Positions 19,260 through 57,324 of a DNA stretch of 64,000 bases are shown in pieces. This DNA comes from Methylocaldum szegediense (lineage in GTDB: Bacteria; Pseudomonadota; Gammaproteobacteria; Methylococcales; Methylococcaceae), in contig NZ_OX458333.1 of NCBI RefSeq assembly GCF_949769195.1, positions 4,498,001 through 4,562,000 on the forward strand. Reading direction: 5' to 3'. The notes beneath the pieces are model-generated. The model had not been told where the DNA came from and ran no database searches. It saw only the letters and a program-made list of their open reading frames with translations. Within the stretch, counting starts at the first letter, position 1. Every line of letters starts with the position of its first letter. A program made the position numbers and the translations under genes.

Positions 19260-19275
19260 TGTAGGAAGTCTTACA
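19260..19275 (+). promoter_or_regulatory. NifA upstream activator site before cysE
   Basis: Exact TGT-N10-ACA (TGTAGGAAGTCTTACA). It lies 94 bp before the -24 element at 19370, a normal distance for NifA. Confidence 0.75.
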
Positions 19276-19369
19276 AAAGAATGCCGATTGTCGTGTTCGC
19301 CACGAGTCACTTCGATCGGCATAAGCTTATTAGTCTTTGATCTGAAAGAGCTTTTATCGTGTCTTGCCA

Positions 19370-19385
19370 TGGCACGGCACATGCT
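19370..19385 (+). promoter_or_regulatory. Sigma-54 promoter before cysE
   Basis: TGGCACGGCACATGCT matches the TGGCAC-N5-TTGC consensus with one change (ATGC for TTGC); the GG and GC pairs are exactly 10 nt apart. With the NifA site upstream it predicts nitrogen-fixation control of the serine acetyltransferase gene 200 bp downstream. Confidence 0.75.
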
Positions 19386-30117: not shown

Positions 30118-30142
30118 GGCGGTCCTCGGACCGCCTTTTTTT
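30118..30142 (+). terminator. Rho-independent terminator after bfr
   Basis: Perfect 8-bp stem GGCGGTCC/GGACCGCC with a 2-nt spacer, followed by seven T. Separates the rnf-bfr unit from the nifB unit. Confidence 0.95.
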
Positions 30143-30181
30143 GTCCGCTTTTAAACAAATCCCCTTCGATGTCGGTTGCTT

Positions 30182-30197
30182 TGTATTGCTCCGAACA
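30182..30197 (+). promoter_or_regulatory. NifA upstream activator site before nifB
   Basis: Exact TGT-N10-ACA (TGTATTGCTCCGAACA), 53 bp before the -24 element. Confidence 0.8.
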
Positions 30198-30250
30198 TTC
30201 CCGACTTCCCTAAGTTTATTTATCTAATTGATTATAAAAGAAGATTTAAG

Positions 30251-30266
30251 TGGTACGCGGATTGCA
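30251..30266 (+). promoter_or_regulatory. Sigma-54 promoter before nifB
   Basis: TGGTACGCGGATTGCA: one change from TGGCAC, exact TTGCA, GG-GC spacing 10 nt. Transcript start expected near 30277; nifB begins at 30389. Confidence 0.85.
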
Positions 30267-52312: not shown

Positions 52313-52720
52313 CTATACCGTAAACGATTTGCTGAGGAAACCGGTTTTGCCCGACAAAATGAGATGGGTCGAATCGAATGGGAAGTCGCCAACAAATCGG
52401 CTGTTCTCCGGCGGTTTGTGCTTGAAGATCAGCGCCGCAGCACAGCGCTCCAGGGTTTCGGCGTCCATGGGGGCGAAGCTGAAGCAGAGTTCTTCGCCGG
52501 TGTCGATGTGGGACTCCCAGCCGGCCTGTTTGGCGTGATCCTCGAGGCAGTCGCGAACGTTTTCCGAGGCGCCGATGTAAACCAGCTTTTGTAGGGAACA
52601 AGTCTGTTTCTTGCCGTTGTAAATGCAGGTGTACACGCAATAGATTCCGGATTTCGCCGGTATCCCGCGCTTTTTCTTCTCTCTCCAATAGCCCTCGAAT
52701 TCGATCGAAAACGTTTCCAT
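52313..52720 (-). CDS. GIY-YIG domain protein
   Basis: 135 residues. GIY-YIG nuclease fold: AKSGIYCVYTCIYNGKKQ, KLVYIGASENVRDCLEDH, then ERCAAALIFKHKPPENSR. The Arg and Tyr positions of the core appear kept (GIY-10/11-YIG and NVRD), Glu of the last helix is less clear. GGAGG ribosome site; starts 20 bp after draG on the same strand, so probably the last gene of the NifA-controlled draTG unit. Its purpose there is unknown. Confidence 0.85.
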   Translation of the reverse strand: METFSIEFEGYWREKKKRGIPAKSGIYCVYTCIYNGKKQTCSLQKLVYIGASENVRDCLEDHAKQAGWESHIDTGEELCFSFAPMDAETLERCAAALIFKHKPPENSRFVGDFPFDSTHLILSGKTGFLSKSFTV

Positions 52721-52740: not shown

Positions 52741-53661
52741 TCAGGTACCAGTCGGGGGCACCCAGCCCACTGGCTGCCCATGCTTGCTTGCGATGCCGAG
52801 AAGCGCGTCGGTTTGCCGCTCGATATGCCTTACCACCTCGGCGTCCAGGCTTTTCAGCCAGCGCGTGGGGATGGCGGAGACGCCGTAAGCCGCTCCGGCC
52901 AGCATGCCGGCGAGCGCGCCGGTGGTGTCGGCGTCATCGCCCTGATTGACCACGCCCACGACGCAGTCGGCAAAGGAATCGGTAGTCAGGAAAAAATGCA
53001 GTACGGTTTGCACGGTGTCGACGATGTAGCCGCTGGCGCGTCCGGGGTAGGGGTCGAAGGAGAACTCCGGATGGGCTTCGACCAGTGCCGCCGCGAGCGG
53101 AAGGCAGTCCTCCAGCGAGCCCCCGCAAACCAGGCGCTGCACCATGCGGCCCAAGGTCAGCGTGGCTGCGTCAGAAAGCGGATGGTGGTGGGTGAAATGG
53201 CACTGCTCCAGCGTCCATTGCGTGAAGGCTTCCGCATTTCCGAGTGTGGCCAGTGCCACCGGGAGGTTGCGCATGCAGGCACCGTTGCCGGCGTCGCCGG
53301 GGTTAGGCGGGCCGGCAAGGCTTCCGTCCAGCAAGTAGCGCCGAATACCGCGGCGGCAGGTATTGCCCACGTCGATCGGTTTTCCTTTCAGCCAAGCCGC
53401 GAAAGCGTCCGCTACGGCCTTGAGGTTCCAGCCGCCGCTTTCGATGATCGCCCGGCCCAGCACCAGGGACATCTCGGTATCGTCTGTCACCTGGCCAGCC
53501 TTGAGCTTGAGCCAGCCGCCGCCGATGATCTTGTCGTGAACGCCGTACTGATGGCGGATCTCCCGAGGTGTCATGAACTCTACGGTGGCACCCAGCGCGT
53601 CGCCGACGGCGAGTCCCAGATAAGCGCCCAGGGCGCGGTTATGGAGTTCTTGCGTGTCCAT
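52741..53661 (-). CDS. draG: Dinitrogenase reductase-activating glycohydrolase DraG
   Basis: 306 residues from ATG 53661 overlapping the draT stop (TGATG). Removes ADP-ribose from the nitrogenase Fe protein and restores activity. Dimanganese ligands fit TDDTEMSLVLGRA near the N-terminus and QGDDADTTGALAGMLAGA near the C-terminus; NRALGAYLGLAVGDALGATV is the family opening. Longer upstream frame discarded. Confidence 0.95.
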   Translation of the reverse strand: MDTQELHNRALGAYLGLAVGDALGATVEFMTPREIRHQYGVHDKIIGGGWLKLKAGQVTDDTEMSLVLGRAIIESGGWNLKAVADAFAAWLKGKPIDVGNTCRRGIRRYLLDGSLAGPPNPGDAGNGACMRNLPVALATLGNAEAFTQWTLEQCHFTHHHPLSDAATLTLGRMVQRLVCGGSLEDCLPLAAALVEAHPEFSFDPYPGRASGYIVDTVQTVLHFFLTTDSFADCVVGVVNQGDDADTTGALAGMLAGAAYGVSAIPTRWLKSLDAEVVRHIERQTDALLGIASKHGQPVGWVPPTGT

Positions 53662-54476
53662 CAGTAATAGGAGGCTTTGACGCGATACTCGCCGCCGATA
53701 ACCAGATATTCCCATTCGCCTTTGAGCGGGTGACGCGGCAACAGGTTGTTGAAGAAGAGAATTTTCACTACGGGCACCTGTACCTCCAGGATGAAGTCAC
53801 CGAACTCGCAGGCGGTCTCACGGTTCGATGTGAACGACACCAGGTTGTTGAGCCGCACGGTGAGCCAGCGACCGTCGCGGGGGCCGATCTGTCGCTGTTC
53901 GTCGAAACGATTTTCGCCCCGGTAGAGGGTGACGTGGCGTCTGCCCGGCAAGCCGAACCGGGCGATGGCCCACTGGCAGAATTCGTACAAGAGGTCGAGC
54001 TGGAGATTGATGCTGTTGTTGTGGAACCGACTCGACATTTTTTCTTCGATGTAGGTGATCCAGGCCGGAGAATTGAAGCGTGTCAGCGGTTCCTTGTGGA
54101 AGGTCGGAAACAAGCCGAAGCGGCTTTCCACCCAGCCCTTGAGAACCGCGCCCTGGGGATTGTTTGAATCGAATCCCCAGCCGCTCAGCAGCTTGAGATA
54201 GCTGGAGCGGAAACGACGCGGGCCGGCGTCTTGTTGCCCGGCGCGGGGTTCCCCGTTCAGGCCGAATAGCACGTACATGTACTCCTGAAAAATCTCCGCC
54301 GCCGTATGCACGTCCTCGGCTTTTTTCAGTGCATCGAACAAACCGTAGTTCGCTTCCCGCACGCCGCTGATATGCAGCGGCAGCGGGTGCTCGTTGAATG
54401 CCGCGCTGGCCAAGAGCCCGGTCGGAATGCCCACCAGATTGGTGCTGTGGCCGATACGGGCGATGTCTTGGGCCAT
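53661..54476 (-). CDS. draT: NAD+-dinitrogen-reductase ADP-ribosyltransferase DraT
   Basis: 271 residues. Inactivates the Fe protein by ADP-ribosylating an arginine (R102 in NifH of this window). Recognisable: GHSTNLVGIPTGLLASAAFN, RHVTLYRGENRFDEQRQIG (Arg-Gly in the NAD site), LNNLVSFTSNRETACEFGDF. Adjacent draG and a NifA-controlled promoter upstream of the unit complete the switch-off system. Confidence 0.96.
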   Translation of the reverse strand: MAQDIARIGHSTNLVGIPTGLLASAAFNEHPLPLHISGVREANYGLFDALKKAEDVHTAAEIFQEYMYVLFGLNGEPRAGQQDAGPRRFRSSYLKLLSGWGFDSNNPQGAVLKGWVESRFGLFPTFHKEPLTRFNSPAWITYIEEKMSSRFHNNSINLQLDLLYEFCQWAIARFGLPGRRHVTLYRGENRFDEQRQIGPRDGRWLTVRLNNLVSFTSNRETACEFGDFILEVQVPVVKILFFNNLLPRHPLKGEWEYLVIGGEYRVKASYY

Positions 54477-54494: not shown

Positions 54495-55079
54495 TCAGAC
54501 CGGCCGATTCTCGGGAATTTTGATCGGCCCCATGATCTTCAAGCCCTCTTCGAAACTGATTTCCGGAAACTTCTCGTTGAACTCGGCCGCGGCGTCCGCG
54601 ACGATCTGCAGTTTGCCCGCGGTATCGAGCTTTTTCAAATCGCCGCGATCGATGTTGAACAAGTCGCGGAGTTCGTTGTACACGGTCGCTTCGTCCAGCG
54701 GTAATACCCAGAAGGTGGTGCCGCCGTAGGCAATCTGATAGCGCAGGGAAATATCCAGGTTGCCGGCGAAGAAGAAGTATTTGCCGGTAGGCGAGAGCTT
54801 ATCCCCCATGACCTCGCACAATAGCTTCAGATGCTCTAGGGACAGCACGACACCCGCGAGGAACGAGATGGTCGGTTCGCCTGCCTTGGCGACGATCATC
54901 ACCTGATCGAAGCGAATTTCCGGCGGGCGGGCTTCGTCGCTGAGCTGTTGGGCGAACTTCAGAGCGATTTCGCCTCGGAACCCGAAATAGCCCGGCTTGG
55001 TCTCGCCCATGAAAACCGGGGATATTAGGCGCTTTTCAGCGTCGAGGCTGGCGAGGGCGGTTTCGTTGATCGTGGTCAT
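54495..55079 (-). CDS. Unknown protein of the draTG operon
   Basis: 194 residues. Soluble alpha/beta: KRLISPVFMGETKPGYFGFR, AKAGEPTISFLAGVVLSLEH, KYFFFAGNLDISLRYQIAYG, FWVLPLDEATVYNELRDLFN. No cysteine cluster apart from one Cys, no membrane segment. Family not recognised. Overlaps the hemoglobin gene by 4 bp and precedes draT by 18 bp, so it is produced with both. Confidence 0.82.
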   Translation of the reverse strand: MTTINETALASLDAEKRLISPVFMGETKPGYFGFRGEIALKFAQQLSDEARPPEIRFDQVMIVAKAGEPTISFLAGVVLSLEHLKLLCEVMGDKLSPTGKYFFFAGNLDISLRYQIAYGGTTFWVLPLDEATVYNELRDLFNIDRGDLKKLDTAGKLQIVADAAAEFNEKFPEISFEEGLKIMGPIKIPENRPV

Positions 55080-55522
55080 GACACTCCTTCAGGTAGGTTG
55101 CGGAGAAAATCGGCGGTCTTGAAAAGGGAAGCGGCGAGCCGTGCCCGCAGCTCGGCATCGGATACTTGTTCTTCCAACGCCCGGTTCATGCAGGCCATCC
55201 AGGCGTCCCGAGCGGCTGCGTCGATGGGAAAGGGCAGATGTTTCTGCCGAAGCCGCGGTGGCCCGTAGCGCTCCGCGTACAGCGGTGGACCGCCCAGCCA
55301 GCCGGATAGAAACTGGAACAGTTTTTCTTTCGACGGGCCGAGATCTTCAGGATGCATCGCGCGGATGGCGCGCGCCTCCGGAAGCTCGTCCATCAGCTGA
55401 TAGAAACGCTCAACCAGGCGGCGCACGGCGGGTTCGCCGCCGAGCTGGCGGTAATGAGGATTGGCGAGTGTTGCCGGCAGCGCCACCGCGGTGGCGCGTG
55501 GTATGGCGGTTTTCTGTTTCAC
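55076..55522 (-). CDS. Group II truncated hemoglobin
   Basis: 148 residues with a GTG start at 55522 overlapping the stop of the receiver gene (GTGTGA); the longer frame overlaps that gene. Heme globin fold: NPHYRQLGGEPAVRRLVERF, B10 Tyr41, WLGGPPLYAERYGPPRLRQK, proximal His95 in RQKHLPFPID, and Trp108 of group II (DAWMACMNRAL). May bind O2 or NO near nitrogenase. Placed under a NifA-type promoter with draTG. Confidence 0.95.
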   Translation of the reverse strand: MKQKTAIPRATAVALPATLANPHYRQLGGEPAVRRLVERFYQLMDELPEARAIRAMHPEDLGPSKEKLFQFLSGWLGGPPLYAERYGPPRLRQKHLPFPIDAAARDAWMACMNRALEEQVSDAELRARLAASLFKTADFLRNLPEGVS

Positions 55523-55944
55523 ACGACTTGAACCGGGATGCTCAGTTTTACCGGACGCCCGAGCTGCACATCGACCTTCTGGCGGGTCTTTTCTATGGTC
55601 AGAGGTTTCGCCAGGATGGAATTGACGCCGTTCTTGAGACAATCCTTGGCCAAAGGGTCGGCCGCTGAATCCGCGACCAGAATGATCTTGAGGTCGGCTA
55701 TTCGCGAGTGGATCTCCGTTAGCACGTCCATCCCTTTTTCCTTGACGATGCCGATGCCTAGCAGCAGAACGTCCGGTTTCCAGTCCTTCGCCTTGGCGTA
55801 AGCCGCTTCCAGGCTGGACAATTCGTGCGTCTCGATTTCGTCGTGAAGCATGAACTGCAGGGCCGCGCTGGTGATTTCGTCATTGTCGACGATGAACACC
55901 CGCCGGTTGTCGACGGCCCTTTCTGTATCTACACCGATCTGCAT
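55519..55944 (-). CDS. Pseudo-receiver domain protein (phospho-acceptor missing)
   Basis: 141 residues from ATG 55944 (GAGGAG ribosome site). Response-regulator receiver fold alone: RRVFIVDNDEITSAALQFML with acidic D20/D22, AKDWKPDVLLLGIGIVKEKG, LKIILVADSAADPLAKDCLK, NGVNSILAKPLTIEKTRQKV with the conserved Lys113. At the phosphorylation position the usual Asp is Gly63 (LLLGIG). No output domain and no kinase gene nearby. First gene of the hemoglobin-draTG unit. Confidence 0.9.
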   Translation of the reverse strand: MQIGVDTERAVDNRRVFIVDNDEITSAALQFMLHDEIETHELSSLEAAYAKAKDWKPDVLLLGIGIVKEKGMDVLTEIHSRIADLKIILVADSAADPLAKDCLKNGVNSILAKPLTIEKTRQKVDVQLGRPVKLSIPVQVV

Positions 55945-56025
55945 AGGCGACTCCTCGATGTGTAAAACGATTGCGCGAATGCCCGGCATGCGCTCGGGCG
56001 GCCACGCGAGTGACGCCTAGGCTGT

Positions 56026-56041
56026 AGCAATCTTCGTTCCA
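56026..56041 (-). promoter_or_regulatory. Sigma-54 promoter, minus strand, for the receiver-globin-draTG unit
   Basis: On the minus strand TGGAACGAAGATTGCT: one change from TGGCAC, exact TTGCT, GG-GC spacing 10 nt. Lies 82 bp upstream of ATG 55944 and about 90 bp from the nearest NifA site. Confidence 0.8.
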
Positions 56042-56130
56042 TTCCACCAGCCTCTGAACGGAGACGCCGAAGTCGCTGATTTCGCGTTGCTCGAACGGCT
56101 GATATTCGGTTTCGAGCCGTGCGGACGGTT

Positions 56131-56146
56131 TGTATCGTTCCTTACA
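56131..56146. promoter_or_regulatory. NifA site 1 in the divergent nifH region
   Basis: Exact TGT-N10-ACA (TGTATCGTTCCTTACA). Palindromic, so it can serve either promoter; 89 bp from the minus-strand -24 element. Confidence 0.85.
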
Positions 56147-56159
56147 AACCGTATGGTTT

Positions 56160-56175
56160 TGTCCGGTTAATAACA
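56160..56175. promoter_or_regulatory. NifA site 2 in the divergent nifH region
   Basis: Exact TGT-N10-ACA (TGTCCGGTTAATAACA), 90 bp before the -24 element of nifH. The centres of sites 1 and 2 are 29 bp apart. Confidence 0.85.
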
Positions 56176-56265
56176 TCCGTTCAAGGATCGAAAAGCGACA
56201 TCGATTCCGGATTTTGGGCAACTTTTCTTCGTAGAAACAGGCCTTTACGCACATCCTCTGGCGTG

Positions 56266-56281
56266 TGGCACAGAGGTTGCT
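56266..56281 (+). promoter_or_regulatory. Sigma-54 promoter of nifHDK
   Basis: TGGCACAGAGGTTGCT, a full match to TGGCAC-N5-TTGC with GG-GC spacing of 10 nt. Transcript start expected near 56292; nifH starts at 56443. Confidence 0.95.
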
Positions 56282-56364
56282 CGATGGCTGTCGACCAGTA
56301 CGCGTCCATTCACCGAAAGAAACGGTGACAAAGAAGAAAAAAAAGAAATGTTCGCCGCGTTTGA

Positions 56365-57324
<960 letters not shown>

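Follow-up and report, generated by a model that had tools for sequence, protein, structure and literature searches.

Both a NifA-dependent gene divergent from nifH and pairs of divergent sigma-54 promoters are already known. In Pseudomonas stutzeri A1501, pnfA lies opposite nifHDK, depends on NifA and RpoN according to qRT-PCR, and is required at 0.5% oxygen for nitrogenase to reach full activity; no draTG genes are reported for this strain (PMC2820453). The gene azo0536 of Azoarcus BH72, located near nifH (azo0538) in the nif cluster, has predicted NifA and RpoN sites (PMC3916325). For Rhodospirillum and Magnetospirillum, candidate NifA sites are reported ahead of draTG (PMC4999443), and RNA-Seq of the methanotroph Methylomicrobium buryatense shows a joint increase of draTG and nifHDK (PMC7154130). 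Adjacent divergent sigma-54 operons under one activator are described in Salmonella (PMC3844500).

The locus described here lies in a 64,000-nucleotide stretch of the Methylocaldum szegediense genome, the whole of which is called the window. Like the pnfA/nifHDK region of A1501, it carries TGT-N10-ACA sites and a -24/-12 promoter for a gene divergent from nifHDK, but A1501 PnfA is a protein of 31.7 kDa (PMC2820453), whereas the window gene encodes a pseudo-receiver of the 15-kDa class that is 141 amino acids long and is followed by globin and draTG genes. Size thus sets the window gene apart from those encoding ~31.7-kDa PnfA-type proteins. The draTG genes of Rhodospirillum and Magnetospirillum are also predicted to be under NifA, although the accessible text mentions neither a receiver gene nor a site pair common with nifH (PMC4999443). 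The Salmonella hyc/hyp (FhlA) and zraP/hydHG (ZraR) loci resemble the present one in that two operons are expressed from adjacent sigma-54 promoters under the same activator, but the activators and genes are different (PMC3844500). A receiver gene opposite nifH is not described in the accessible text of PMC9769520, PMC6925177 and PMC8788690, nor in the remainder of the literature searched, which was mostly non-subscription and without supplements and is therefore weak evidence of absence. Three features of the locus were not met with in the literature searched: an arm with a pseudo-receiver, the weaker consensus match of its promoter in most relatives, and how widely the layout occurs.

NifA-type sites and divergent promoters upstream of nifH

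The intergenic region between the minus-strand receiver gene and nifH (56443..57324, plus strand, the first gene of the plus operon) is 498 bp long (window 55945-56442). Two NifA-type sites (UAS) reside in it: UAS1 (56131..56146, TGTATCGTTCCTTACA), which is kept in all 19 related loci that we compared, and UAS2 (56160..56175, TGTCCGGTTAATAACA), 29 bp from UAS1. Both are exact TGT-N10-ACA sequences, as originally predicted. A sigma-54-type promoter for nifHDK lies to the right at 56266..56281 on the plus strand (TGGCACAGAGGTTGCT), and another for the receiver operon lies to the left at 56026..56041 on the minus strand (TGGAACGAAGATTGCT). When scored against the consensus TGGCACG-N4-TTGCW, each has one mismatch (10/11), and the GG-N10-GC of the -24/-12 element is present in both arms. 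The gaps between the UAS pair and these promoters are 90 bp on the nifH side and 89 bp on the receiver side, and in both arms TGT-N10-ACA is placed at least about 100 bp ahead of the expected start. The original prediction placed a full-match promoter 90 bp to the right and a one-mismatch promoter about 90 bp to the left. Both distances and the single mismatch of the minus-strand element proved accurate, but the nifH element is a full match only if G or A is allowed at the one base that differs. At this locus, the UAS in the window occur only between the two divergent promoters.

Lone TGT-N10-ACA sites carry little weight, because the window contains 10 exact instances versus 5.4 expected, and 8 of 100 shuffles reach 10. 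One further exact site, at 56444-56459 within the start of the nifH coding sequence, is probably a chance occurrence. The exact pair with 29-bp spacing is the single case in the window, and when one mismatch is allowed, pairs at this spacing are found twice versus 0.02 expected. Promoter-like sites with up to two mismatches occur in the window at chance level (11 versus 10.15 expected). A pattern consisting of TGGMRC-N5-TTGC with a UAS 61-91 bp upstream, which is narrow and misses the promoters of nifB and of the cysE-type gene elsewhere in the window, has two matches in the 4.9-Mb genome, and these are the two promoters in question; the reversed control of this pattern has none in the same genome. 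The combination of UAS and promoter is not due to chance.

Weak IHF-like sequences, each with two mismatches and alone not significant, are tentatively located in the nifH arm (56235..56247, plus strand) and in the receiver arm (56092..56104, minus strand). Among 71 of the regions compared below, IHF-like sites with at most one mismatch number 27 versus 5.5 expected in nifH arms, and 10 versus 2.1 expected in receiver arms. In the nifH leader, an A-rich stretch (56330-56350) is conserved over the 19 related loci. The predicted fold of this leader is no better than that of shuffled sequences (z -0.42), and positions 55400-57000 have no Rfam match.

Other nif-related elements are found in the window and elsewhere in the genome. 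A second UAS pair with 29-bp spacing and one mismatch is found within 19260-19385, with the sigma-54-like sequence TGGCACGGCACATGCT at 19370, and precedes a cysE-type serine acetyltransferase ORF; this arrangement looks like another NifA promoter. Upstream of nifB (TIGR01290), positions 30142-30266 contain exact UAS at 30142 and 30182, and TGGTACGCGGATTGCA at 30251. A second nifH-like gene (G000:C1:2255333-2256211) is 91% identical to the window nifH and may belong to another nitrogenase. A search of the genome found no other close match to the receiver.

Conservation and asymmetry of the layout

The original prediction proposed that the spacer be compared in related genomes. Among 61 such genomes, the receiver has 19 unambiguous orthologues (E at most 6e-51), with the next matches at E 6e-8 or weaker. 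The receiver is opposite nifH in all 19 loci, and each spacer contains two UAS, spaced by 29 or 30 bp and flanked by sigma-54-type promoters. When these loci are aligned, the conserved islands are both promoters and the UAS pair. In these loci UAS2 stands 83, 94-97 or 106 bp away from the nifH promoter.

To obtain a wider sample, GTDB species genomes were scanned with the receiver alignment, and the best 80 of 177 relatives were used. These 80 were retrieved with peptide patterns including QFMLHDE, which biases the survey, so the conservation of this segment among them is partly due to selection. They include Methylocaldum, Methylococcus, Methyloglobulus, Hydrogenophilales, Thiobacillus and Sulfuricella, as well as Hyphomicrobium, Methylocella, Methylocystis, Bradyrhizobium, Azorhizobium and Novosphingobium, and one metagenome-assembled genome labelled Fibrobacteria that is possibly misbinned. 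In all 76 loci with nifH in the DNA examined, this gene is divergent from the receiver; for the remaining four, the DNA examined extends merely 290 to 1,430 bases upstream. The receiver is thus kept opposite nifH across Alpha-, Beta- and Gammaproteobacteria.

The 95 regions from the two samples (19 and 76) were reduced to 85 distinct regions by removing repeats. They share descent and were picked by receiver similarity, and the counts that follow are therefore not independent trials. The nifH promoter scores 10/11 or 11/11 in every region. An opposing receiver promoter of at least 8/11, with GG and GC exact, is present in 84 of 85, versus 6.04 expected from dinucleotide shuffles; the sole exception (L083) carries a 7/11 site. 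Scores of at least 9/11 are reached in 68 regions (1.2 expected), and of 10/11 in 22 (0.12 expected). TT precedes the GC of the receiver promoter in all 85 regions, though the search did not require it, and information is limited to the -24 and -12 elements, with nearly none in the flanks. Three loci from a separate search (L153-L155) likewise show the two promoters together with one or two UAS; the sites of L153 are the same as those of L067.

As a control, we considered nifH loci that lack the receiver, represented by 11 loci from 14 receiver-less genomes. A nifH promoter is present in each of the 11, accompanied by one or more UAS. A minus-strand site scoring 8/11 or better occurs within up to 1 kb in 7 of the 11, so a stretch of 1 kb commonly contains one. 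This control is loose, because the scanned stretch is longer than in the receiver set, and dinucleotide shuffles are the fairer null. Two loci, L130 (10/11) and L133 (9/11), have a minus-strand sigma-54-like site ~40 bp upstream of a different divergent ORF, and these ORFs may be other users of the slot opposite nifH.

In most regions (72 of 85) the layout is compact, with promoters at most 260 bp apart, and 68 of these 72 have one to three UAS that are clear of the nifH promoter. Exact UAS between compact promoters number two in 42 regions, one in 21 and three in 5. The other four (L072, L077, L082 and L094), which are Methylocystis-type or alphaproteobacterial, lack any exact UAS that does not overlap the nifH promoter, and the presence of UAS between the promoters is therefore not universal. 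The arms are split, with promoters further apart, in the remaining 13 regions. Here, nifH has its own group of UAS in all 13, and the receiver promoter has a UAS pair near it in 12 and a single UAS in L043. A second plus-strand sigma-54 site is found ~200-226 bp from the receiver start in 12 of the 13. Among nine such split regions, five contain an ORF that presumably begins like an Rrf2-type regulator, three others contain an ORF whose visible part ends at that start, and L056 contains none. In L040, L046, L051, L053 and L080, a presumed Rrf2-like gene separates nifH from the receiver and has a sigma-54-like site of its own, and a UAS pair is close to the receiver. A test for a helical-phase rule in the receiver arm found none (mean resultant 0.10 at 10.5 bp).

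The two promoters mostly differ in quality. Among the 85 regions, the nifH promoter scores higher than the receiver promoter in 69, equally in 16 and lower in none (Wilcoxon p 2e-13, relatedness ignored). The nifH element always starts with TGGCA, whereas the receiver element mostly starts with [TC]GGAA; the fourth base is C in all 85 nifH promoters, and A in 64, C in 15 and T in 6 of the receiver promoters. The window is one of the ties, with both promoters at 10/11, although its receiver promoter carries a GGAAC variant. The symmetry noted in the original prediction is thus seen in the gaps and in the scores of the window, but does not extend to promoter quality across the family. Consensus quality is taken to reflect the strength of sigma-54 promoters. 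If it does so here, the arms would be co-regulated with unequal output, and this is probably the case across the family. For the window itself, unequal output would be predicted from its relatives, because its own two promoters have the same score.

The minus-strand operon and its pseudo-receiver

The first gene of the minus operon encodes the pseudo-receiver (55519..55944; PF00072, 55.9 bits, cut-off 30.2). It is followed on the same strand by genes for a bacterial globin with a GTG start (55076..55522; PF01152, 121.3 bits on a longer ORF to 55642), a 194-amino-acid protein without a Pfam or NCBIfam match (54495..55079), the dinitrogenase reductase ADP-ribosyltransferase DraT (53661..54476; PF07357, 364 bits), the ADP-ribosyl-dinitrogenase-reductase hydrolase DraG with an internal ATG start (52741..53661; TIGR02662, 465.5 bits), and, 20 bp from draG, a 135-amino-acid protein that also lacks a Pfam or NCBIfam match (52313..52720). 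The receiver stop overlaps the globin start as GTGA, the globin stop overlaps the start of the 194-amino-acid protein as ATGA, and draT and draG overlap as TGATG. Elsewhere in the operon the genes are separated by 18 and 20 bp, and the 135-amino-acid gene is the last before a gap of 386 bp. These overlaps and short gaps, followed by a long gap, support a single transcription unit from the receiver to the 135-amino-acid gene.

Further along the minus strand are a TauE-like gene and genes for a nitrogenase-associated ArsC-like protein (TIGR01616) and a SagB-like nitroreductase. A similar ArsC-like protein is encoded directly after the receiver in 7 of 21 loci viewed by eye, and the one checked, from L058, matches TIGR01616. 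Given this position directly behind the receiver, the minus arm may go back to an old accessory arm of nif, with the globin and draTG arriving later. In the flanking DNA examined for the 80 loci of the wide sample, the receiver is followed on its own strand by draT or draG in 19, and by a globin domain in 8. The globin and draTG are thus lineage-specific additions, and the receiver is the constant partner. The original prediction paired nitrogenase with its ADP-ribosylation switch, a hemoglobin and a pseudo-receiver; as a general arrangement, this holds for the receiver but not for the other genes. Of the 80 receiver loci, 9 have a well-conserved copy of the 194-amino-acid protein, and distant relatives of it (23-26% identity) are found in L043 and L048.

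The receiver matches the PF00072 profile over the whole domain. It shares with response regulators of this family the profile itself, an acidic residue at D22, and Lys113, but unlike these proteins it has no phospho-acceptor Asp, a conserved MQIGV N-terminus, and no output domain within its 141 amino acids. In an alignment of 99 rows (19 and 80, some loci being entered twice), with the phospho-acceptor position assigned via alignment to YycF, this position is Gly in 91 rows, including the window protein, Ala in 6 and Ser in 2, and Asp in none of the 99. D22 and Lys113 are each kept in 97 rows, and MQIGV is nearly invariant.

All 19 related genomes with the receiver have nifH. In a sample of the phylum, the receiver was detected in 4 of 398 genomes, all among the 41 with nifD, and nifH is opposite the receiver in all three new loci from this sample. 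In the samples tested, the receiver is therefore found solely alongside nif genes. It is dispensable for nitrogen fixation as such, because 14 of 33 nifH-containing genomes among the relatives lack it. Our best guess is that the receiver is a phosphorylation-independent binding partner. More tentatively, this nif-specific, non-phosphorylatable pseudo-receiver could be an unrecognised regulator of nitrogen fixation that binds NifA, NifL, PII or nitrogenase and is kept at a fixed lower ratio by the promoter asymmetry, an idea that we consider possible but somewhat less probable than its converse.

A candidate bidirectional NifA enhancer

The genome encodes one protein above the TIGR01817 cut-off for NifA (669.6 bits, cut-off 528.85), adjoined by NifL (697.4 bits) at C1:934,400, outside the window. 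Some 20 other proteins in the genome have sigma-54 activator domains, and because there are many of these, RpoN is very likely encoded as well. The sites, promoters, gene order, overlaps and conservation observed at this locus point to a bidirectional NifA enhancer, in which one pair of sites drives both nifHDK and the pseudo-receiver/globin/draTG operon, and we assign this reading a probability of about 85%. Every sequence test made agrees with the original prediction on this point. That the products of the two operons are made together under NifA is what we infer from these features, as are binding of NifA and its control of the minus-strand promoter.

Under the proposed mechanism, NifL would release NifA under N2-fixing conditions, and NifA would then occupy both TGT-N10-ACA sites. 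Through DNA looping, perhaps assisted by IHF bends, it would contact sigma-54 RNA polymerase at the two divergent -24/-12 promoters. The right promoter would express nifHDK, and the left promoter would express a translationally coupled operon encoding the pseudo-receiver, globin, a protein of no known family, DraT, DraG and one more protein. A single occupancy of the enhancer would thereby switch on both arms. Since the left promoter is generally poorer across relatives, we propose that nitrogenase would be made in excess of the shielding and switching proteins.

Three other explanations were considered. If this element were a chance match, as might be supposed given that two-mismatch sites in the window are as frequent as in shuffles, it would not be expected to recur; its presence in 84 of 85 distinct regions versus 6.04 expected, with information restricted to the -24 and -12 elements, makes such an origin extremely improbable, and we consider it ruled out by conservation. 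The UAS pair might instead serve nifH only, with the minus operon expressed either from its sigma-54 promoter by means of another enhancer-binding protein or from an unrecognised sigma-70 promoter, and draTG consequently untied from NifA. The ~20 additional activator-domain proteins in the genome could supply such a regulator, and four of 72 compact regions have no clear exact UAS. However, NifA-type sites are found in the window at a distance of 89 bp from the minus promoter, and when the arms are split (13 of 85 regions), UAS stay by the receiver promoter, as a pair in 12 and as one site in L043. In addition, pnfA, which is also opposite nifH, has been shown to be NifA-dependent (PMC2820453). 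We therefore regard a nifH-only role as improbable.

An arrangement with one UAS per promoter, whereby UAS1 acts on the receiver promoter and UAS2 on the nifH promoter so that the enhancers are adjacent and not shared, is more plausible than the preceding alternatives, though still unlikely. In its favour, 42 of the 72 compact regions have two UAS, and the spacing is 29-30 bp in all 19 related loci, but 21 of the 72 hold a single exact UAS, even if degenerate extra sites are possible in these. At the hyc/hyp and zraP/hydHG loci, activator sites are shared by both promoters. Sharing of the UAS pair by the two promoters, as in the bidirectional enhancer that we favour, is predicted for the present locus, as is the ratio of their outputs.

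If the bidirectional enhancer exists, nitrogenase and the genes that shield and switch it would be turned on via one activator site, in a layout maintained over three classes of proteobacteria. The region would then serve as a naturally occurring promoter for two directions, whose outputs are predictably unequal. It would also draw attention to a conserved pseudo-receiver that is seen here only in genomes with nitrogenase genes.
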